From NCBI RefSeq assembly GCF_009497895.1, contig NZ_CP033116.1:2294001-2358000 (forward strand): a DNA stretch of 64,000 nucleotides. The letters are read 5' to 3'. Under the pieces are notes generated by a model. The model worked only from the letters and a program-made list of their open reading frames with translations. It made no database searches and was not told the DNA's origin. Numbering within the stretch: position 1 is the stretch's first letter; every line of letters begins with the position of its first letter. The stretch comes from Halopseudomonas pelagia (GTDB lineage Bacteria; Pseudomonadota; Gammaproteobacteria; Pseudomonadales; Pseudomonadaceae). Positions 4,434-58,460 of the stretch are shown one piece after another. A program made the translations under genes and the position numbers.

Positions 4434-5645
4434 TCAGATTCGCGCCGAGGTCATGGCTGACGAACCCCAGGTGGTGCGCCAGCGACGTTTGACGCCAATC
4501 AAGCCAAACAGGGCCAGCAGGCCGAGGCCAGAAAACAACCAGAGTCCCAGTTGGTAGTCGCCGGTCTGCTGCTTGATGGTACCCAGCCCGGCGGCCAGTA
4601 CGAACCCGCCTACGCCGCCGGCCATGCCGATCAACCCGGTCATTACCCCGATTTCACGATGAAAGCGCTGGGGTACCAATTGGAAGACCGCACCGTTGCC
4701 AGCGCCCAATCCCAGCATGGCTGTGACGAACAGCGCCAGTGCAGCAAAGGAGCTGGAGAGGTTAAAGCCAACCAGCGCGATACACAGCGATGCTACGGCA
4801 TACATGCACAGCAGCGAGCGAATGCCACCGACCCGGTCGGCAAAGGCGCCACCCAACGGCCGCATCAGGCTGCCGGCCAATACGCAGGCGGCGGTGTAGT
4901 AGCCCGCGGTCACCGGGTTTAGCCCGTACTGGTCGCTGAAGTAGCCGGGCAGGGCACTGGCCAGACCAATAAAGCCACCAAAGGTTATGCTGTAGAAAAA
5001 CATGAACCACCAGCTGTCTTTATCGTTCAGCGCCAGCAGATAGTCCTTGCCGGCCTTGGGCTTGGGGCGCTGGGGTGAGTTCTTCGCCACCAATATAAAG
5101 ATGATCAGAGTGGCGACCAGCGGAATCAGTGCCAGGCCAAATACATTCTGCCAGCCGAACAGATAGGCCAGTCCGGGTGCAAACAGCGCGGCAAGCACGG
5201 TGCCTGAATTACCCGCGCCGGCAATGCCCATGGCCTTGCCCTGATGCTCTGCTGGGTACCATTGCGAGGCCAGTGGCAGCGCGACCGCAAAGGCGGCGCC
5301 GGCAAAACCCAGCCCCAGGCCCAGCAGCAACGCCTTGTTGTAGCTGTCGACGCCCAGCAGCCAGGCAGTAGCCAATGCGGTAATCACTACCACTTGACCA
5401 ATGATGCCCGCGGTTTTGGGAGACAACCGGTCAGCCAGAAAGCCCATCAACAGTCGCAGGACAGCGCCCGCGAGAATCGGCGTGGCGACCATCATGCCTC
5501 TTTGCTGTGCGCTGAGGCTCAAATCGGTAGCGATCTGCACCGCAAGGGGGCCAAGCAGATACCAGACCATAAAGCTAAGATCGAAGTAGAGAAAGGCGGC
5601 AAACAGAGTCGGTGTATGACCGGCTTTCCAGAAACTTTTGTTCAT
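4434..5645 (-). CDS. nasA: NasA, nitrate/nitrite transporter of the NNP (NarK) major-facilitator family
   Basis: A 403-residue membrane protein with about 12 predicted hydrophobic segments. It carries the two NNP nitrate signatures, GIAGAGNSGT at 140-149 and GLGAGNGAVFQ around 312-322, together with MRPLGGAFADR (261-271). It imports nitrate, and possibly nitrite, across the inner membrane for assimilation by nirBD. The start at 5645 (MNKSFWKAGH) has GAGGGAT just upstream; an in-frame ATG at 5723 lies inside the terminator of the leader and is unlikely. It leads a two-gene unit with the downstream kinase and is preceded by its own attenuator and sigma-54 promoter. Confidence 0.93.
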   Translation of the reverse strand: MNKSFWKAGHTPTLFAAFLYFDLSFMVWYLLGPLAVQIATDLSLSAQQRGMMVATPILAGAVLRLLMGFLADRLSPKTAGIIGQVVVITALATAWLLGVDSYNKALLLGLGLGFAGAAFAVALPLASQWYPAEHQGKAMGIAGAGNSGTVLAALFAPGLAYLFGWQNVFGLALIPLVATLIIFILVAKNSPQRPKPKAGKDYLLALNDKDSWWFMFFYSITFGGFIGLASALPGYFSDQYGLNPVTAGYYTAACVLAGSLMRPLGGAFADRVGGIRSLLCMYAVASLCIALVGFNLSSSFAALALFVTAMLGLGAGNGAVFQLVPQRFHREIGVMTGLIGMAGGVGGFVLAAGLGTIKQQTGDYQLGLWLFSGLGLLALFGLIGVKRRWRTTWGSSAMTSARI

Positions 5646-49638: not shown

Positions 49639-50559
49639 TCAAGCCGAAGCTTCAGCCTCGTAGTTGGCGTAAGAGTGCTTTAGCGTAGCGTGGTTTAGCA
49701 GCATTTCAGCCTTGAGTGTTCCGCCGCTGGCGTCGTAGATGCGGCTGCGGACCCAGTAGGATTCGGTGCGTTTGCTTTCTGACAGGGCCACGATCTCGCG
49801 ACGGATCAGGTAGTCCTCGCCGACAAACAGGGGGCCGTCGATCATGCGGATCTCCTGATCGGCAAACAGGCCGATCACCGGCTGCTTGACCGGAAAGGCG
49901 GCTTGCTTGCTGGTGTACTCGGCCAGTACGCTGACCATCTCCAGCGGAATGACCGCGTGACCCCAGGGCGTGCTGGCGTCGTCAGAATACCAGGGTGAAT
50001 TTTCCGTTATGCCCTCAAGCTTTTGCGCAAGCGAGAAGGGATACAGGTCGCCCATGTGCTGCTCGGCATCCATGCGCACTTTCTCGTCCTCAGCACCCAG
50101 CATGCCGACGTGCAGATCGGAGAGGATGACCAGCTTCTCCGGTGCGCGCAGTTTCGCCATACGCTCATCCAGCAGTGTAGGGCTGTCATCCGGGCCGAGG
50201 CTGGCGCTGGCTTCCAGTACCGGAGTGCCATCGGCTTTCTCCGCCCAGGCGCGCACACGAGTGGCGCCGGGAGCAGGCCGCTCGACAAAAGCGCGAACCA
50301 GTTCACCCTCAACGACCATATTCTGGAAGTGCGACGAGAAACAGCCTCGCTCAAACCAGGCCTGGCCCCAGATTTCCGCCAACAGCGGAACGAACAGGCT
50401 GAAGTGTGTGGGGCCTTCAATAGGTCCGGCTCGGAAGCCGAGCTTTTCCGCCATGCTGTCATCGTGAATGGAGGTGTGGCCGCTGTATTGCTGGTCGGCC
50501 AGCATTTGCTTGGGTTCGCGCAGTGGCCCGCAAAGGTAGAGAGGGGTAGCAAAGCTCAT
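49639..50559 (-). CDS. Hot-dog / MaoC-like protein of unknown function
   Basis: A 306-residue protein. The segment HTSIHDDSMAEKLGFRAG followed by EGPTHFSLFVPLL resembles MaoC-type dehydratase (double hot-dog) proteins, with Asp/His around residues 33 and 51 as possible catalytic residues. No transport signal. It is oriented away from the pirin gene 197 bp upstream. No acyl-CoA genes are near, so the family call is tentative. Confidence 0.6.
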   Translation of the reverse strand: MSFATPLYLCGPLREPKQMLADQQYSGHTSIHDDSMAEKLGFRAGPIEGPTHFSLFVPLLAEIWGQAWFERGCFSSHFQNMVVEGELVRAFVERPAPGATRVRAWAEKADGTPVLEASASLGPDDSPTLLDERMAKLRAPEKLVILSDLHVGMLGAEDEKVRMDAEQHMGDLYPFSLAQKLEGITENSPWYSDDASTPWGHAVIPLEMVSVLAEYTSKQAAFPVKQPVIGLFADQEIRMIDGPLFVGEDYLIRREIVALSESKRTESYWVRSRIYDASGGTLKAEMLLNHATLKHSYANYEAEASA

Positions 50560-50755
50560 GGTTCTGTCCTTGGTGTACAGGGGATCGCTGAAGTGTAGTC
50601 AGAGTGACAGGGGCTCGGCAAACGTGCGGTTGTAGAGATATTCAGAGCAATGATGGAAAGGTCTGGGGAAGCTCGACCTGTTTGTGTTGCTGGAGCTATG
50701 CTGAGCTGGTTGGCGGGCCGGGTCTTACGCGAATTTAAGTTGGGAGGAAAATCAC

Positions 50756-51670
50756 ATGAGCAATACGTTGCCAGATGCCGTTCAGTCCTGCTCAGTATCT
50801 GACCCGCCTTGCGCCGCCATTGAGCTGATCATCCAGCCACGCGAGCACGATATCGGCGGTCTGGTGGTCCGGCGGGCGTTGCCCACGGCGAAACGCAAGA
50901 TGGTCGGCCCCTGGATATTTTTCGACCATATGGGGCCCGCACGTTTTTCCGCGGGGCAGGGCATCAACGTGCGGCCACATCCGCATATTGGTATTGCCAC
51001 CGTGACCTACCTGTTTGCCGGCGAAATTTTGCATCGGGACTCCATCGGTAGTCTGCAGCCTATCCGGCCTGGCGACATCAATCTGATGGTGACGGGTAGC
51101 GGCATGGTGCACTCCGAGCGCGAACGACCGGAAATCACGGCAGTCGAGCATGAGTTGCATGGTCTGCAATTGTGGCTGGTGCTGCCTGAATCAGATGAGG
51201 AGGTGGCGCCGACATTTCACCACTATCCGAGCCGCGATATACCTGCCGTCGATGTAGAAGGCGTAACAGTAAGAGTGATGATGGGCAGCGCCTTCGGCGT
51301 CACCTCGCCAGTGCGGGTGTTCTCCGAGACGCTGTATGTAGAGGCGCATTTAAAAGCCGGGCAATCGCTGATGCTCCCCGAAACCGGCGAACGTGCGGTG
51401 TATGTTGCCAGTGGTGCATTGCAGGCAGGAGGCACGGCGTTACCCCTGCACTCGATGGCGATCTTCTCCAGCGCCCCAGATATTGTGGTGACTGCCACCG
51501 AGGACGCCCGCATCGCGCTGATTGGGGGCGAGCCACTGGGGCGGCGATTTATCGAATGGAATTTTGTATCCAGCCGCAGAGAAAGGATAGAACAGGCCAA
51601 ACAGGCTTGGCGCGCGGGGCAATTCGCCAAGGTAGTGGGTGATGAGGACGAGTTTATTCCCTTGCCTTGA
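50756..51670 (+). CDS. Pirin family protein
   Basis: A 304-residue bicupin. The N-terminal cupin has the metal-binding set HPHIGIATVTYLF (His at about 78 and 80) with the later VHSERE (His122 and Glu124), and the C-terminal cupin is recognisable (VYVASGALQAGG). Pirins are Fe-binding proteins, some with quercetinase activity; their bacterial role is often unclear. GGGAGG precedes the ATG. Confidence 0.9.
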   Translation: MSNTLPDAVQSCSVSDPPCAAIELIIQPREHDIGGLVVRRALPTAKRKMVGPWIFFDHMGPARFSAGQGINVRPHPHIGIATVTYLFAGEILHRDSIGSLQPIRPGDINLMVTGSGMVHSERERPEITAVEHELHGLQLWLVLPESDEEVAPTFHHYPSRDIPAVDVEGVTVRVMMGSAFGVTSPVRVFSETLYVEAHLKAGQSLMLPETGERAVYVASGALQAGGTALPLHSMAIFSSAPDIVVTATEDARIALIGGEPLGRRFIEWNFVSSRRERIEQAKQAWRAGQFAKVVGDEDEFIPLP

Positions 51671-51706
51671 TTGATGGCGCTGCGTGTTGGCGATCACGCT
51701 TCGGGG

Positions 51707-52000
51707 TTAACCACGCACACTGTTACTGCCCAAGGTAATGGTTCCCTCGCCAAGCAGCGTATTGGACCCCGGCGGGCAACCGCAGGCAACGTAATCGCCA
51801 GCTCTGGCTGCCAGGCCTGCGGGCAGAGTGACAGTTCTTTTGCCGACCGCCACGATCTCGCCAATCCCTTTCTTGCAAGCTGGGCAGGTGGCCTTGTGAC
51901 CAATGGAGCTGGCTACAAGGCCATCGAACGTCAGCCCCGAGTTGCCCTCAATAACGGCGCCTCCAGTGGAGGTCTTAGAACCAATCCCTATTTTCAGCAT
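51707..52000 (-). CDS. PAAR-domain protein
   Basis: A 97-residue protein whose glycine/serine-rich repeats (TSTGGAVIEGNSGLTFDG ... GHKATCPACKKG ... DYVACGCPPGSNTLL) are the pattern of PAAR tips, with Cys residues near the zinc site. PAAR proteins sharpen the VgrG spike of type VI secretion systems. No VgrG, effector or other T6SS gene adjoins it. The start at 52000 has AGGAG upstream, at a rather long spacing; the frame to 52102 is not supported. Confidence 0.8.
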   Translation of the reverse strand: MLKIGIGSKTSTGGAVIEGNSGLTFDGLVASSIGHKATCPACKKGIGEIVAVGKRTVTLPAGLAARAGDYVACGCPPGSNTLLGEGTITLGSNSVRG

Positions 52001-52432
52001 GACGCTTAACGCTCCTGGTAAAACCGCTTTAGCCTGTTGTGAAGAGTGGGAGCATTGGTTTTGCTCTAGATGCACAGGCATGACGACAACACTCTGGCGC
52101 ATGAGCTTAATAACCCAGGCGCTCAGGTCAATTCGAAGGTGACAGCTTTGCTGGGCAGATCACATTTTGACGCATGAGTGCGGACACCTGGGCATAAGCT
52201 GGTTGTGTTCTTGGCTTTTTAGACAGGCAGCGCAGCGCTTGACACTACTGCTCAATAAGCACGCGTTGGCTGATTTGTTCGTTAGCATTGGTGTTAATCG
52301 CACCACGTCTTAACTTTATAAGTTGGTGTTTTAATCGCTAACTTACTATGTCGGGCTCTTTGGTCTTTCTATTCAAGTTTTCGTGTTGTTAGTGACGAAG
52401 TGTTTATATGCATTTCGGCACAACGCTATCTC

Positions 52433-52444
52433 ACCCATTTGGGT
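52433..52444. promoter_or_regulatory. Palindrome ACCCATTTGGGT (possible operator)
   Basis: One of two 12-bp sites of form ACCCA-NN-TGGGT, 218 bp before the hydrolase start. It is a near match to the second site at 52513 in inverted orientation when the flanking TTAA is counted. Confidence 0.55.
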
Positions 52445-52512
52445 TAAGCAATTGATTTAAAACAATTCATTTCGTATGGTCATAAAATGAAAGTGTATCA
52501 TTTATAACTTTA

Positions 52513-52524
52513 ACCCATATGGGT
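52513..52524. promoter_or_regulatory. Palindrome ACCCATATGGGT (possible operator)
   Basis: A perfect 12-bp palindrome, centred 80 bp from the first site and about 143 bp before the hydrolase start codon. The pair suggests a dimeric regulator, perhaps with DNA looping. Confidence 0.6.
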
Positions 52525-52661
52525 GAAAGTGCCCAGATGGCATTGACTTGTGTTCTTTATGGATCAAAACTTCGGCCGGCTGATGGTATTTCTCTGGTCC
52601 GTGGACCGTCAGCTAAAACAAGTTTGAATAATAAAACCGTTGTTATATCCATGGAGTTTCA

Positions 52662-53594
52662 ATGAAAAATACTATTTCCCGCCCAGCCCGCCTTTCCAAG
52701 ACTCTGTCTACGTTCCTTACGGCGAGTGCGTTGATGCTCTCTGCTACTGCGATGGCCGCAAACCCAGTTCCTCCAGACGAGCCGAGTGAGCCTGGTACGG
52801 GCTTTGAGCGCGGTCCCGATCCCAGTGTGTCTTTTCTGGAAGCGGCTACCGGTCCTTATTCTGTCGATACCGAACGGGTCTCTGGCTTCGTGAGTGGTTT
52901 CGGTGGCGGTACTATTCACTACCCTGAAGACACCACCGGCACCATGGCGGCGATCGTTGTGATTCCCGGTTATGTATCTGCCGAGTCGTCTATCGAATGG
53001 TGGGGGCCCAAGCTGGCTTCACACGGCTTTGTAGTCATGACCATCGATACCAACAGCGGCTTCGATCAGCCGCCAAGCCGTGCTGATCAGATCAATGCCG
53101 CTCTTGATTATCTGGTTGATGAAAACACCAGCTCGGGTAGCCCGGTGCAGGGCATGATCGATACCGATCGCCTGGGTGTAGTTGGCTGGTCGATGGGCGG
53201 CGGCGGCACGCTGCGCGTGGCCACTGAGGGTCGTATCAGTGCGGCCATACCGCTGGCGCCTTGGGATACCTCCAGCTTGCGCTTTCGCAATGTAGAGGCG
53301 CCGACGCTGATCATTGCCTGCGAGTCCGACATTATTGCTCCGGTGGGAAGTCATGCATCACCGTTCTACAACCGCATCCCCGAGGACGTGGACAAGGCCT
53401 TCGTCGAGATCGACGGTGGCAGCCACTACTGCGGCAACGGTGGTGGGTTCAACAATGATGTGCTGAGCCGTTTCGGTGTGTCCTGGATGAAGCTGCATCT
53501 GGATAATGATGACCGTTATCAGCAGTTCCTCTGCGGTCCTGACCATGAGGACGACAGCGACATTTCCGAGTATCGCGGTAACTGCCCTTACTAA
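52662..53594 (+). CDS. PET-hydrolase-like secreted polyester hydrolase
   Basis: A 310-residue exported alpha/beta hydrolase (signal peptide ending in ATAMAANP). It has the PETase nucleophile motif GWSMGGGG (Ser177), Asp223 in ESDIIAPV and His255 in GGSHYC, the oxyanion aromatic in IPGYVSA (Tyr104) and Trp201 in LAPWDTSS. Two disulfides are likely: Cys220-Cys257, the extra one of IsPETase-type enzymes, and Cys291-Cys308 at the C-terminus. From memory it is very close to P. aestusnigri PE-H. Expected substrates are short polyesters and perhaps PET; natural substrate probably cutin-like esters. GGAG lies before the ATG. Confidence 0.93.
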
Positions 53595-53614
53595 GCGGCA
53601 GGCTACTAATGAAG

Positions 53615-53644
53615 CGCCGGGACCCCCTCAGGGCTCGGCGTTTT
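53615..53644. terminator. Terminator between the PETase-like and TetR genes
   Basis: CGCCG pairs with CGGCG enclosing CCC/GGG, followed by TTTT on the plus strand. It ends exactly at the stop codon of the convergent TetR gene. Confidence 0.65.
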
Positions 53645-54294
53645 CAGTTGGATGTCGAGATGTTGTTGTCGGCTTGAATTGCGGCACGGCACAGCTGCTC
53701 CATCTGTTCCGCCCACTGACGCATGTAATCGTCATCCATCTGCAGTAACAGGGCATAACGCCGCCCGCCCCAGACTGCGATGTGTAACGCCTCTATGGTT
53801 GCTGGGGAAGGGATGCGCGGCAGATCGGTACAGGCTTGAAACACGCGCTGCCACATCTGGCTCAGTTCCTGGTGTGCGCGCTGCTGGTGTTTGAGTTCAG
53901 CGATGGACGGCTCCAGGTCCAGCATGTCTGGATGAAACCAGGGCAAGCCCGTACGTTCCACGCCACAGAGTATCTGTAACAGACCGTGCAGGCGGGCTTC
54001 CCAGTCCAGGCCTTGCGCCTGCGTCACTTGAGTATCGACCTTTTCAATCAGCGACTCTATGCAGTAGCGCATGTAGCCCGAGTGCAGGGCGGTCTTGTTC
54101 GGGAAGTAGTCGTACAGGGTACCTACGGCGATACCCGTTTCCAGCGCGACGGCGCGCGTGGTGATGCGCTGCCAACCGTCGCGCTGCCAAATCCGAACAA
54201 AGGCATCAAAAATGGCTTGAACGGTGAACTTGGCCCGCGCTTGCGAAGGTCTTTTTAGCGGCCGGGCCTTGGTTTCAGGGGCAGCGGGGCGCAT
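53644..54294 (-). CDS. TetR-family transcriptional regulator
   Basis: A 216-residue regulator with an N-terminal helix-turn-helix (ITTRAVALETGIAVGTLYDYF, then PNKTALHSGYM) and a ligand-type C-terminal half. The ATG at 54294 is chosen; a TTG two codons upstream is possible. It diverges from the DUF2855 gene with 81 bp between, so it is likely to control that gene. Confidence 0.9.
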   Translation of the reverse strand: MRPAAPETKARPLKRPSQARAKFTVQAIFDAFVRIWQRDGWQRITTRAVALETGIAVGTLYDYFPNKTALHSGYMRYCIESLIEKVDTQVTQAQGLDWEARLHGLLQILCGVERTGLPWFHPDMLDLEPSIAELKHQQRAHQELSQMWQRVFQACTDLPRIPSPATIEALHIAVWGGRRYALLLQMDDDYMRQWAEQMEQLCRAAIQADNNISTSN

Positions 54295-54375
54295 GTTCAA
54301 TAACCGAACCCGGGGCTCGATTCAACGCGATAGAGTAATTGCATCCTGAAAACCCCTCCTATGGAGCAACAAGCG

Positions 54376-55482
54376 ATGACAATGCTGACTCAACTGCAAA
54401 CTGATAAGTCCGCGCTGGAGCGCACACGTATTGTAACCAGCGAATTACCGAGGCTGCAGCAAGGCGAGGCGCTGATGAAAATCGACGGGCTCGCGGTTAC
54501 AACCAACAATATCACCTATGCCGCCTTCGGTGACACGCCACATTTGCGCTACTGGCACTTCTTTCCCACCCAGGAAAAGGGCTGGGGCCACATGCCGGCC
54601 TGGGGCTTTGCCGAGGTGGTCGAGTCCACTGTGGAAGGGCTGGAGAAAGGTGAGCGCTTCTATGGCTACTGGCCGATTGCGAGCCATCTGGTGGTCAAAC
54701 CAGTCCGGGTCGGCGAGCGCGGTTTCTATGATGGTAGCGAACATCGGCTGGACCTGACCTCTGCCTACAATCAATACCAGCGTACCCGTACTGATGCCGC
54801 CTACCGCGCGGATGACGAGTACTACCAGATGCTGCTGCGCCCGCTGTTTATCACCTCATTCATGCTGGCGGACTTTCTGGAAGACAATGGTTTTTTCGGT
54901 GCCCGGCAGATTGTGGTATCCAGCGCTTCGAGCAAAACCGCTTACGGTACAGCGTTCTGCCTGGAGAGCCTGGATAAGGTGCATCTGTTCGGCCTGACCT
55001 CTTCCGGCAACCAGGCATTTGTCGACTCTCTGGGTTGCTACGATCAGAGCGTGGGTTATGACGAGCTGGAAACCCTCGATCCATCCGTACCCACGCTGTA
55101 TGTGGATTTCTCCGGTGATGATCAGTTGCGCTCGCGTGTACACCACCATTTTGGCGATTCGCTGGTCTACGACTGTTACGCGGGCTCTGCACAGTCCCAT
55201 GAGCATCTGGACGAGAGCGAGAAAAACTTGCCGGGGCCCGCGCCGCAGTTTTACTTCGCGCCCTATCAGATCAAGAAGCGCAATGCCGATTGGGGCGCGG
55301 CCGAAGTAACACGTCGGTTCAATGAGGCGCAGCTGGCGTTTATTCGCCGGGTCGGCGACAAACAGCAACCCTGGATGCGGGTCAATGAGCATCACGGTCT
55401 GGAAGCCGCGCAGGCGCTGGTCGAAGATCTTTGCGCCGGGCGCATTGATCCGCGTGAAGGGCATGTGGTGCTGATCGACTAA
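54376..55482 (+). CDS. DUF2855 protein
   Basis: A 368-residue protein of the DUF2855 family: AVTTNNITYAAFGDTPHLRYW near the N-terminus, then a Rossmann-like stretch (IVVSSASSKTAYGTAFCL) as in medium-chain dehydrogenases. No clear catalytic metal site was seen, so it may be a reductase-like protein of unknown substrate. The ATG at 54376 has GGAG 9 bases upstream; an in-frame ATG at 54361 has no support. It is probably controlled by the divergent TetR gene. Confidence 0.85.
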   Translation: MTMLTQLQTDKSALERTRIVTSELPRLQQGEALMKIDGLAVTTNNITYAAFGDTPHLRYWHFFPTQEKGWGHMPAWGFAEVVESTVEGLEKGERFYGYWPIASHLVVKPVRVGERGFYDGSEHRLDLTSAYNQYQRTRTDAAYRADDEYYQMLLRPLFITSFMLADFLEDNGFFGARQIVVSSASSKTAYGTAFCLESLDKVHLFGLTSSGNQAFVDSLGCYDQSVGYDELETLDPSVPTLYVDFSGDDQLRSRVHHHFGDSLVYDCYAGSAQSHEHLDESEKNLPGPAPQFYFAPYQIKKRNADWGAAEVTRRFNEAQLAFIRRVGDKQQPWMRVNEHHGLEAAQALVEDLCAGRIDPREGHVVLID

Positions 55483-55503
55483 GACCTGGTTTTTTCTCTG
55501 CGG

Positions 55504-55527
55504 ACAGGGCACCAGATGGCGCCCTGT
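55504..55527. terminator. Terminator between convergent DUF2855 and phosphoribosyltransferase genes
   Basis: ACAGGGC pairs with GCCCTGT around a 10-base loop and is followed by TTATG. It fits a shared terminator. Confidence 0.6.
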
Positions 55528-56145
55528 TTATGTCCGCGGTTTGACGCTATCGAGTATGGCGCCGAGATAGGGCTTGTGCTGGTCGATATCTGCGCGACTC
55601 AGGCCGTTCATTTCGTAAGGAAAGACCAACCAATCTTCGGTGCTGTGCAGACAGTAGTCAGGTTTTAGCGCGGTACGCCCGGCACCCTGGCGCTGATAAA
55701 GCGTAGCAATGCGCGTGTCCTGCGGCATATTGCGCTTGAGTTGCTGGCTCAGCCGATTCAATACGGCAGTCATGCTGTAACCCGTGCCAAAGGCATCGTC
55801 CACGATCAGCAGGCGATCGTCGTGGTTGAGGTTGTCTAGCAGGTAATGGGTGCCGTGAACCCGTATTTCTTCCTCGGGCGAGGCCACCATCGCATCGTAA
55901 TGATCCATACCCCGATAGGAGGTGCGCAAGGCGATATGGTCAGTAGCTACACCAAGGGTTTGCAAGCATTCCTGTACATAGATGCCGATGGCGCTGCCGC
56001 CACGCCACAGGCCGACAATAAAATTGGGTCGGAAGCCGCTCTCATAGATTTGCACCCCCAGGCGAAAGGCGTCTTCAATCAGCTCGTTTTCCTGTAGGAA
56101 TCGCCGCTGGCGTGGGGTTTGCTGAGGTGCTGAAGGCTCTTGCAT
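55528..56145 (-). CDS. Phosphoribosyltransferase-like protein with altered PRPP loop
   Basis: A 205-residue type I phosphoribosyltransferase (FRPNFIVGLWRGGSAIG, IALRTSYRGMDHY). The PRPP motif reads IVDDAFGTGYSM, where the usual Asp of 'DTG' is Gly. Its neighbour across 62 bp is a paralogue in the opposite orientation (about the same length, shared WRGG, FRP and VDD blocks). Perhaps a hypoxanthine/guanine-type enzyme; the base is not identifiable. Confidence 0.78.
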   Translation of the reverse strand: MQEPSAPQQTPRQRRFLQENELIEDAFRLGVQIYESGFRPNFIVGLWRGGSAIGIYVQECLQTLGVATDHIALRTSYRGMDHYDAMVASPEEEIRVHGTHYLLDNLNHDDRLLIVDDAFGTGYSMTAVLNRLSQQLKRNMPQDTRIATLYQRQGAGRTALKPDYCLHSTEDWLVFPYEMNGLSRADIDQHKPYLGAILDSVKPRT

Positions 56146-56207
56146 GACTTGCCAGGATGCTCCGACTGGTGGGACTATGGCGCGAAGTCACAAACGCTAA
56201 CGGTCTT

Positions 56208-56771
56208 ATGCCAGAGAAACAATACCTCAGCGCACAAAGTTTGCTCGAAGATGCCTTTCATCTCGCCGCGCAGGTGCTCAACTCCGGGTTTCGCCCCACC
56301 TTCATGATCGCCGTGTGGCGCGGCGGTGTGCCCATGGGTATCGCCGTTCAGGAATTTCTTGATTATCACGGCGTGCAGACCGACAACATCGCCATTCGCA
56401 CTTCTTCCTACCACGGAATAGACCAGCAAAGCCGCACGGTACGAGTGCATGGGCTGAATTACCTGGTTAAACACGTCACCCAGGAAGACCGGCTGCTGAT
56501 CGTTGATGATGTATTCGATACTGGCAGGTCGGTTGCTGCGATTATCGAGGAGCTGCGTCAGAAGGCGCGGCTCAATACTCCGAATGACATCCGTGTCGCC
56601 GTGCCGTACTACAAGCCAAGCCGCAACGAGGTGGGCTGGGAACCTGACTACTATCAGCACAATACCGATGCGTGGCTAAAGTATCCGCATTCGCTGGAGG
56701 GATTGTCGCATGAAGAGATCAGGGCCAATCGACCCGAGCTGTATGCCATTCTGGCGCCGCATTTGAAGTGA
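56208..56771 (+). CDS. Phosphoribosyltransferase (hypoxanthine/guanine-type) paralogue
   Basis: A 187-residue type I phosphoribosyltransferase with the standard PRPP loop LLIVDDVFDTGRSVAA and FMIAVWRGGVPMGI for the pyrophosphate side. The ATG at 56208 lacks a strong ribosome-binding site; an in-frame ATG at 56157 would leave only 11 bp to the divergent paralogue and so no room for two promoters. It may salvage a purine base. Confidence 0.82.
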   Translation: MPEKQYLSAQSLLEDAFHLAAQVLNSGFRPTFMIAVWRGGVPMGIAVQEFLDYHGVQTDNIAIRTSSYHGIDQQSRTVRVHGLNYLVKHVTQEDRLLIVDDVFDTGRSVAAIIEELRQKARLNTPNDIRVAVPYYKPSRNEVGWEPDYYQHNTDAWLKYPHSLEGLSHEEIRANRPELYAILAPHLK

Positions 56772-56849
56772 GATAGACACGGTCAGCGGAACTCGGGCCG
56801 GTTTTTACCTATCACACCAGAACATGCATCTGTATTGGCTGGAGTTCTC

Positions 56850-57023
56850 ATGACTAACGACCATCAACATCCCGGTGAAAATAATCCGCCTCACAAGCCG
56901 CGTCCCAGTGATGAGCCGCCTCATGATCAGTGGGAAGGTCCGCTGGAGGGCGAGGAGCTGAACGAGATAGATCCCGGCAAGATACGCGAGCAACTCGATG
57001 AGAAGGACGAAAGAAACCGCTGA
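56850..57023 (+). CDS. Small hydrophilic protein, unknown
   Basis: A 57-residue, Pro/Asp/Glu-rich, unstructured-looking protein (MTNDHQHPGENNPPHKPRPS ... IREQLDEKDERNR). The ATG at 56850 has GGAG 5 bases upstream, which supports real translation. No family recognised. It follows the phosphoribosyltransferase gene by 79 bp. Confidence 0.6.
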   Translation: MTNDHQHPGENNPPHKPRPSDEPPHDQWEGPLEGEELNEIDPGKIREQLDEKDERNR

Positions 57024-57110
57024 GGTTCTTTAGTCGGCGCAGTTCGTTCTGGGGGGTAGGTCCAGGCGGGCAGCCCCGCGACTGGCTGGCCAGACCGCGG
57101 AGCGTTTGGG

Positions 57111-58460
57111 TCAGTTTCCTTCCCGGCGCAACGCCTGGGGCGAGAAATCCCGGGGGCTCAATTGAGCCTCGAAGTTGTACATCGGTTCGTTGTTATCCAG
57201 GCCGTCGACGAAATAGTTGCCCGTCTTCAAGTGGTAAAGGGTTTCCAGCGTACTGCCGAACATGGGCACATCGTAGTAGTTGATCGGATGGCTTTCCTGT
57301 AATCCGATCAACTCACCATTCTTGTCCCGCAAATCCACGGCGAGGATTTGCCAACTGTCCTCATCGATATAGAAACGGCGCACCACGTAGGGATGGGTGT
57401 AGCCGTAGCGCAAATTGGCGTCAACAACCCAAACCCGATGCAGCTCGTAGCGCAATAGTTCCGGGTTCAGGGTTTTGGCCTGGACGATCTGGTCGTAGGG
57501 AATGCCCTTTTGGTGAACGGCATAACTGTTGTAGGGCACCAGCATTTCGCGCTTTCCCGCCAGCGTCCATTCATAGCGATCCGGCGCGCCATTGTAGGAG
57601 TCCACCACGTCGGCAGTGGCCAGGCCGCTGGTATCGGGTTGCAAGGAGTCATAGGCCAGCGAGGGCAGGCGGCGAACCCGGCGGTTATCCGGGCTGTAAC
57701 GCCAGGCCTTGCGCGTAGTGAAAATCTGGTCTAACGGATCCTCGACGACCAACGACGTGCCGGCCAGACGAGCCGGTGCGGTGACAGTGTATTTGTAGTG
57801 CAGTAGCGTATTGTCGAGCTTGGCCGACGTCATGCCCTCGCGACCGTAAACATAGTAAATTTGCCGGTCGCGCTTGATCAGGTTGGCATTGCCGTTAATA
57901 ACCACTGCCTGATTGTTGATGAAATGGTTCTGATCGCCGCGGTAATGCAGGATGTGGTTCCAGATCACCTCGGTACCATTTTGCGGGATAGGAAAGGGTA
58001 TGCCGGCAGCAGCGCCAGTGATGCCGTTGCCATTTTCGACCAGCTCAGCATTCAAGGCGTTTTGCCGGGTCGCCTCATAGACCCGCTCTGGTGCCGCGGC
58101 ACTGCGGCGTGAGGGAAAGACCCGCAGGTAGTATTCAGGATGGCGCTCAAGCAAGTCACGCAGACCCTCGGGTAGCAGGCTGGCGTTCTGTTCGGTGTGC
58201 TCGTGAGAGATTTGGTAGAGCGCGGCTTCGTCGGCATAAGGGTCTGGGTGGTGCATGCCTAGGCGGTAATGGGCAGGTGCACTGGCTCCGCCCGTCCAGG
58301 CTGGAATGGTGCCCTCTGCGTTACCGGCGCGTTCCGCCCCCAATGGCGTAAGTCCATTGCCCAGTTGGGCCGCCTGCGTACTGTCAACTTTGCCGTGAGC
58401 CTGGGTTACGCTCAAAGCTGCCGCAAAGGTCAGCACTCTTAATCCCCACTTCCTGTCCAT
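57111..58460 (-). CDS. DUF1329 exported protein
   Basis: A 449-residue exported protein (signal peptide ending TQAHGKVDST) with the DUF1329 pattern: AQLGNGLTPLGAERAGN, then GTIPAWTGG and later RKAWRYSPDNRRVRRLPSLAYD and YELHRVWVVDANLR. The family is thought to resemble LolB/LppX-type lipid-binding folds. Partners often found with it (DUF1302, RND exporters) are absent here. Role unknown. Confidence 0.88.
   Translation of the reverse strand: MDRKWGLRVLTFAAALSVTQAHGKVDSTQAAQLGNGLTPLGAERAGNAEGTIPAWTGGASAPAHYRLGMHHPDPYADEAALYQISHEHTEQNASLLPEGLRDLLERHPEYYLRVFPSRRSAAAPERVYEATRQNALNAELVENGNGITGAAAGIPFPIPQNGTEVIWNHILHYRGDQNHFINNQAVVINGNANLIKRDRQIYYVYGREGMTSAKLDNTLLHYKYTVTAPARLAGTSLVVEDPLDQIFTTRKAWRYSPDNRRVRRLPSLAYDSLQPDTSGLATADVVDSYNGAPDRYEWTLAGKREMLVPYNSYAVHQKGIPYDQIVQAKTLNPELLRYELHRVWVVDANLRYGYTHPYVVRRFYIDEDSWQILAVDLRDKNGELIGLQESHPINYYDVPMFGSTLETLYHLKTGNYFVDGLDNNEPMYNFEAQLSPRDFSPQALRREGN

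Follow-up and report, generated by a model that had tools for sequence, protein, structure and literature searches.

A type IIa PETase-like polyester hydrolase gene in Halopseudomonas pelagia and the Tyr/Phe exchange at its oxyanion position

A 64,000-nucleotide stretch of the Halopseudomonas pelagia genome (contig NZ_CP033116.1, positions 2,294,001 to 2,358,000), here called the window, contains a gene that resembles those of PET-hydrolyzing enzymes. It raises the questions of whether the product cuts polyesters and of whether Tyr104, at a position where the related enzyme PE-H has Phe, sets it apart from its relatives. The original prediction described a PETase-type polyester hydrolase with a two-disulfide pattern, and this description is borne out by the match to the Pfam PETase model PF12740 and by alignment with PE-H and IsPETase. 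With high confidence, the protein can be taken for a secreted type IIa serine hydrolase that would cut polyesters, where fold, disulfide bonding, secretion, activity and products are all read from relatives. Its sequence marks it as an unexceptional type IIa enzyme of a known kind, and it extends an already well-sampled marine group by one natural, probably mesophilic member. The published work drawn on here comprises PMC12442448, PMC12224614, PMC7031157, PMC9350882, PMC11509169 and PMC6922532. A search on laoshanensis and PETase in the literature library covered found no report characterizing the window protein.

The gene and its surroundings

The gene comprises 310 open codons that begin with ATG (52662-53594, forward strand). 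A GGAG sequence 5 nucleotides 5' of the ATG (52653..52656, forward strand) resembles a ribosome binding site. The N-terminus of the 310-residue protein is basic and is followed by a hydrophobic core and an AxA site, all recognized by eye. These marks suggest a probable Sec signal peptide of residues 1-32 (52662..52757, forward strand), cleaved after Ala-Met-Ala, and the protein is probably secreted. PF12740 matches residues 47-309 with 389.9 bits, compared with a cut-off of 28 (E 7.4e-117), and matches to proteins in the PDB reach E-values as low as 3.4e-159.

The window is 95.2% identical in nucleotide sequence to the corresponding locus of H. laoshanensis Y22 over a 10,931-column alignment, which indicates membership in, or a very close relationship to, that species. 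The orthologous protein of that species is 98% identical, differing in 7 of 310 residues, and the two genes are separated by a dN of 0.010 and a dS of 0.106 (dN/dS of approximately 0.09). The Pfam and PDB E-values and the low dN relative to dS rule out a chance open reading frame. A decayed gene would likewise be at odds with so similar an ortholog, with this dN and dS, and with the intact state of every catalytic residue, so that chance or decay together are given practically no weight. The sequence is that of an intact alpha/beta hydrolase.

The gene stands alone between a PAAR-motif gene upstream and a TetR-type regulator gene downstream, both on the opposite strand, and a DUF2855 gene follows the regulator. 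None of the eight neighbors scanned with Pfam (49639-58460) belongs to the families of terephthalate or MHET enzymes. A scan for sigma-70 promoters between 52100 and 53700 found none, where shuffled sequences gave a mean of 1.1, and the 2 terminator-like sites in the same span, relative to a shuffle mean of 1.5, constitute no signal. All ten neighboring genes compared are kept in H. laoshanensis. The locus of H. pelagia CL-AP6 shares the nucleotidase gene, the gene at 49639, the PAAR gene and the DUF1329 gene with the window, and the pirin, TetR and DUF2855 neighbors were not found in its 5-kb flanks at E 1e-15. Among the other loci examined, the TetR and DUF2855 genes are kept together only at one (L050, genome G034), in a comparison that covered flanks of up to 5 kb for loci L004-L022 and approximately 1.5 kb or less for L023-L051, so apparent loss partly reflects the limit of view. 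The window also contains two related phosphoribosyltransferase-like genes in divergent orientation (55528-56145, reverse strand, and 56157-56771, forward strand), which are 43% identical according to cross-matches in the H. laoshanensis locus.

Active site and class assignment

The window protein was aligned residue by residue with the solved structures 8AIT, 8AIS, 6SBN and 7VMD. In PE-H of H. aestusnigri (6SBN), the catalytic triad is S171/D217/H249, the oxyanion hole is formed with M172 and F98, the disulfides are C214-C251 and C285-C302, and Y250 lies beside the catalytic His (PMC7031157). These residues map onto the window protein with a constant offset of +6, and the sole difference is Tyr104 in place of F98. 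Tyr104 (52971..52973; all features in this section lie on the forward strand) occupies the oxyanion-hole and aromatic-clamp position that corresponds to Tyr87 of IsPETase (PMC7031157, PMC12442448). The GWSMGGGG motif (residues 175-182, 53184..53207) includes the catalytic Ser177 and the oxyanion residue Met178, the equivalents of PE-H S171 and M172. Trp201 (53262..53264) corresponds to the clamp residue Trp185 of IsPETase (role from PMC12442448). The triad is completed by Asp223 (53328..53330; PE-H D217) and by His255, which is followed by Tyr256 (53424..53429; PE-H H249 and Y250), where IsPETase has Ser238 beside its His. The residue positions given in the original prediction all agree with the translation, as do its statements of Phe in PE-H and Tyr in IsPETase with the published work.

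The protein has only four cysteines. Cys220 (53319..53321; PE-H C214) would pair with Cys257 (53430..53432; C251) near the active site, and Cys291 (53532..53534; C285) with Cys308 (53583..53585; C302) at the C-terminus. The concern that Cys220 and Cys257 might be too far apart to pair is answered by homology, as they align with the crystallographically observed C214-C251 of PE-H. An AlphaFold2 model built from the window protein and 19 proteins of other loci (20 sequences in all) had a mean pLDDT of 47.2 and a pTM of 0.54, too poor to measure the Cys220/Cys257 distance. It was judged unusable, so the solved relatives, at 74-78% identity, are relied on for structure.

Published rules place the protein in type II of the PETase scheme, with the two-disulfide cysteine pattern, and its extended loop, together with Tyr256 next to the catalytic His, supports its assignment to type IIa. 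Type II enzymes have one cysteine pair at the active site and another at the C-terminus, an extended loop after the catalytic His, and a G-W-S-M-G nucleophile motif (PMC12442448), and the window protein has all three. Its loop is of the short form (residues 258-265, 53433..53456); the span of residues 257-266 comprises 10 residues, compared with 7 in a type I outlier (L021), for which a PDB search returns type I cutinases. In type IIa the catalytic His has a large aromatic neighbor, whereas type IIb, represented by IsPETase, has Ser in that place (PMC7031157). Type III, represented by HaloPETase1, is distinguished by G-H-S-Q-G and by a Thr that replaces the aromatic clamp residue (PMC12442448), and the window protein instead has GWSMG and Tyr104. 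The pieces of the M5-PETase motif (PMC12224614) that the test covered, its fixed parts and the triad, are present: [PG]G[YF], SM with GGGG, the triad and DxDxRYxxFxC. The score against NCBIfam NF051441, the equivalog model for the BdeA BHET hydrolase, is 311 bits, below the cut-off of 520.

Type IIa genes (E below 1e-100) occur in 36 of 37 Halopseudomonas genomes, this one included, and some match is present in all 37. The remaining genome (G035, 92% complete) has distant matches only, at approximately 33% identity. An alignment of 61 rows was made from 53 type IIa places in the 36 genomes, together with seven genes from other genera (Marinobacter, Alkalilimnicola and Streptomonospora). Contig ends truncate some of the 53 places, and two short fragments, on G028 and G031, were excluded. 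One row (L049_969) repeats the L061 gene in truncated form, so the 61 rows represent 60 genes. Ser177, Asp223 and His255 are present in every row. Cys220 and Cys257 each occur in 60, the exception being the type I outlier, and Cys291 and Cys308 occur in 60 and 59, respectively, with gaps in the remainder. Trp201 is found in 58 rows, with Tyr in the other three, and Tyr256 in 54. These residue counts make the cysteine pattern a rule of the group, and Tyr104 is a common exchange. Plasmid spread is not supported: of 72,556 plasmid records, only 5 gave a match, none of them reaching 60% identity.

Two paralogs in one genome (L070 and L071 in G030) have Thr, a small residue, in place of the Tyr beside the catalytic His (GGSHTC). 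The Thr is at the place of PE-H Y250S, an exchange that raised activity (PMC7031157). Also, in 12 of the 61 rows (L005, L009, L015 and relatives), the extended loop is three residues longer than that of PE-H, giving 13 residues in the 257-266 span, and in one further row it is two residues longer. A longer loop has been described for Ple629 (PMC9350882).

The best PDB relatives, among 60 of the 179 matching distinct sequences, are 8AIT, 8AIS, PE-H (6SBN and 6SCD) and Ple628. Both 8AIT and 8AIS are identical to the window protein at 232 of 298 positions (78%) and share the short loop, the Tyr beside the catalytic His and the four cysteines, but they have Phe at the oxyanion position and lack two residues after the clamp Trp (APWDTT--RF). 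Because 8AIT matches an H. bauzanensis protein (L006) without a difference over 298 residues, it is probably PbauzCut. PE-H is identical at 216 of 292 positions (74%) and shares the disulfide cysteines, the triad and the equivalent of Y250; over 298 residues, 6SBN and a protein of genome G002 do not differ. Ple628 (7VMD), from a marine consortium, is identical at 207 of 265 positions, with the two-disulfide cysteine pattern and a gap-free TSSLRFRN stretch, but it also has Phe at the oxyanion position. Its nearest relatives among the loci studied are Marinobacter proteins. IsPETase is more distant (131 of 263 positions, 50%) and shares the cysteine pattern of the two disulfides, the oxyanion Tyr and the Trp clamp. 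Thus, the window protein agrees with IsPETase at position 104 and with PE-H at position 256.

Tyr and Phe at position 104

The hint that Tyr104 sets the protein apart did not survive comparison, because Tyr occurs at this position in 19 of the 60 homologous genes (19 rows) and Phe in the other 41 (42 rows). Within the genus, Tyr is found in 17 of 53 places. One such protein is that of H. pelagia CL-AP6, which is 80% identical to the window protein and has the same triad and cysteines, but its extended loop is three residues longer. PpelaLip is a protein of this strain (PMC6922532), and the Tyr-containing gene (L005) is the sole type IIa gene found in the CL-AP6 genome (G013), so we infer that its product is the characterized PpelaLip. 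Identification of PpelaLip with 8AIS was considered and rejected, as 8AIS has the same sequence as a protein of genome G021 over 298 residues, and the CL-AP6 protein differs. The 80% figure is also that given in a 2018 table for the identity of PpelaLip and a homolog in 'P. pelagia 58' (PMC6922532), so that strain and the source of the window may represent one lineage.

HaloPETase5 and HaloPETase6 are type IIa enzymes of the same genus, from H. sabulinigri HyVt-376, and both hydrolyze PET coatings at high salt (PMC12442448). The HyVt-376 genome (L011) includes three type IIa genes, whose products are 73, 73 and 76% identical to the window protein. Two of the three have Tyr at position 104, so at least one of HaloPETase5 and HaloPETase6 should carry it. 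Type IIa enzymes with Tyr104 have therefore very probably been assayed already, as PpelaLip and as HaloPETase5 or 6, to the extent that these assignments from sequence hold.

Tyr104 might act as a functional switch by which type IIa enzymes are tuned toward IsPETase-like behavior. The residue is identical to Y87 of IsPETase, and the tree requires a minimum of 12 Phe/Tyr changes, or 11 when the type I outlier is dropped; well-supported branches force at least seven of them. Moreover, the Phe and Tyr labels are more clustered on the tree than in most shuffles, only 3 of 500 of which were as low. However, clustering is expected from descent alone, and frequent back-and-forth exchange, which extends to paralogs in the single HyVt-376 genome, fits near-neutral change. 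Position 256, which has been shown to matter in PE-H through Y250S, remains Tyr in the window protein. A relation with loop length was also considered. With the type I outlier excluded, Tyr104 occurs in 9 of the 13 rows with a long loop and in 9 of the 47 with a short one, and the window protein, itself of the short form, clusters with the CL-AP6 protein, whose loop is long (support 97/93). The relation was rejected once relatedness was allowed for: nearly all of the 7 independent pairs on supported branches lack a loop difference (sign test p 1), and the informative pairs are too few to reach 0.05, so that power is low. The pattern is attributed to shared descent, and a functional switch is considered unlikely. 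The genus-wide count does supply natural pairs with which to test whether the Tyr hydroxyl matters for PET cutting.

Substrates and other candidate polyester hydrolases

By analogy with its solved relatives, the window protein would hold an ester carbonyl between the aromatic clamp residues Tyr104 and Trp201, and Ser177, activated by His255 and Asp223, would attack it. The oxyanion would be held through the backbone NH of both Tyr104 and Met178. The Cys220-Cys257 disulfide would staple the loop of the catalytic His, and Cys291-Cys308 would close the C-terminus. The enzyme would probably cut polyester surfaces at moderate temperature and, with amorphous PET, release mostly MHET and terephthalate. 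PE-H-like activity is expected, with MHET released from amorphous PET and little or none from bottle PET. Relative to PE-H, Tyr104 amounts to one extra hydroxyl, and its effect on activity is expected to be near neutral.

Published results for relatives vary with the form of PET. PE-H is active on amorphous PET film (PMC7031157). Ple628 and Ple629 act on oligomers and PET nanoparticles, but PET film was not degraded by Ple629, a type IIa enzyme (PMC9350882). Significant film loss was reported for one of three Halopseudomonas isolates, the carrier of a full M5-PETase gene, with which PET film became 2.7% lighter over 85 days of culture; the loss was negligible with the other two, which have incomplete PETase-like genes (PMC12224614). 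Because Ple629 and these two isolates failed, membership in the genus or family is no guarantee of film activity.

It is fairly probable that the enzyme serves as a secreted polyesterase for natural ester polymers or oligomers, such as cutin, suberin, algal or storage polyesters, and that activity on PET is weak or absent in this ortholog. The occurrence of type IIa genes in nearly all genomes of the genus favors such a role, as does a 2018 survey in which every species of the lineage had a homolog (PMC6922532). The chemistry is the same as that of the polyester-cutting hydrolase proposed above; the two readings differ on substrate only and are not exclusive. Weighing against an absence of PET activity, PE-H, HaloPETase5/6 and Ple628/629 all release products from some form of PET. 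Because the gene is so widespread in the genus, PET hydrolysis may well be incidental to its work as a natural polyesterase, and we would guess that plant or algal polyesters are the natural substrate.

The Pfam PETase model matches four places in the same genome: the window gene, a tandem pair above the cut-off, and a fourth place just below it (26.6 versus 28 bits; G000:C1:2285168-2285554, L079, forward strand). The tandem genes (L075:3584-4501 and 4660-5526, reverse strand; G000:C1:2181.6-2183.5 kb) lie approximately 163 kb before the window gene. Their products have GHSQGGGG, which by the published rule (PMC12442448) assigns them to type III, and their closest PDB matches are 9HL5 (HaloPETase1), 9W68 and 9K0H, with best E-values of 3.1e-125 and 2.8e-132. 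Beside the pair is a gene for a type-B carboxylesterase (PF00135; L075:5756-7675, reverse strand).

Conceivably, the type IIa enzyme and the tandem type III enzymes form a two-type set for aromatic polyester degradation, with the carboxylesterase as an MHETase-like second step on soluble esters and the Phe/Tyr site as a point of tuning between paralogs. If so, the strain would degrade aromatic polyesters by means of a second-step enzyme unrelated to the MHETase of Ideonella, although such an arrangement is considered very unlikely. A search with PF07519, the tannase family that includes MHETase, gave no matches in this genome and also none in 14 control genomes, so the empty result is given no weight. 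A homolog of the carboxylesterase is present in 13 of the 37 genus genomes and, by coordinates, adjoins a type III gene in at least 4 of these 13, with the genes on separate contigs in some drafts. It is located away from the type III gene in the single-contig genome G029 and in the three-contig genome G021, so the case for a conserved partnership with type III genes is weak and was set aside.

The carboxylesterase appears to have a lipoprotein-like N-terminus and is a candidate second-step esterase. Also beside the type III pair is a gene for a putative LysR-like regulator, a label assigned by inspection.
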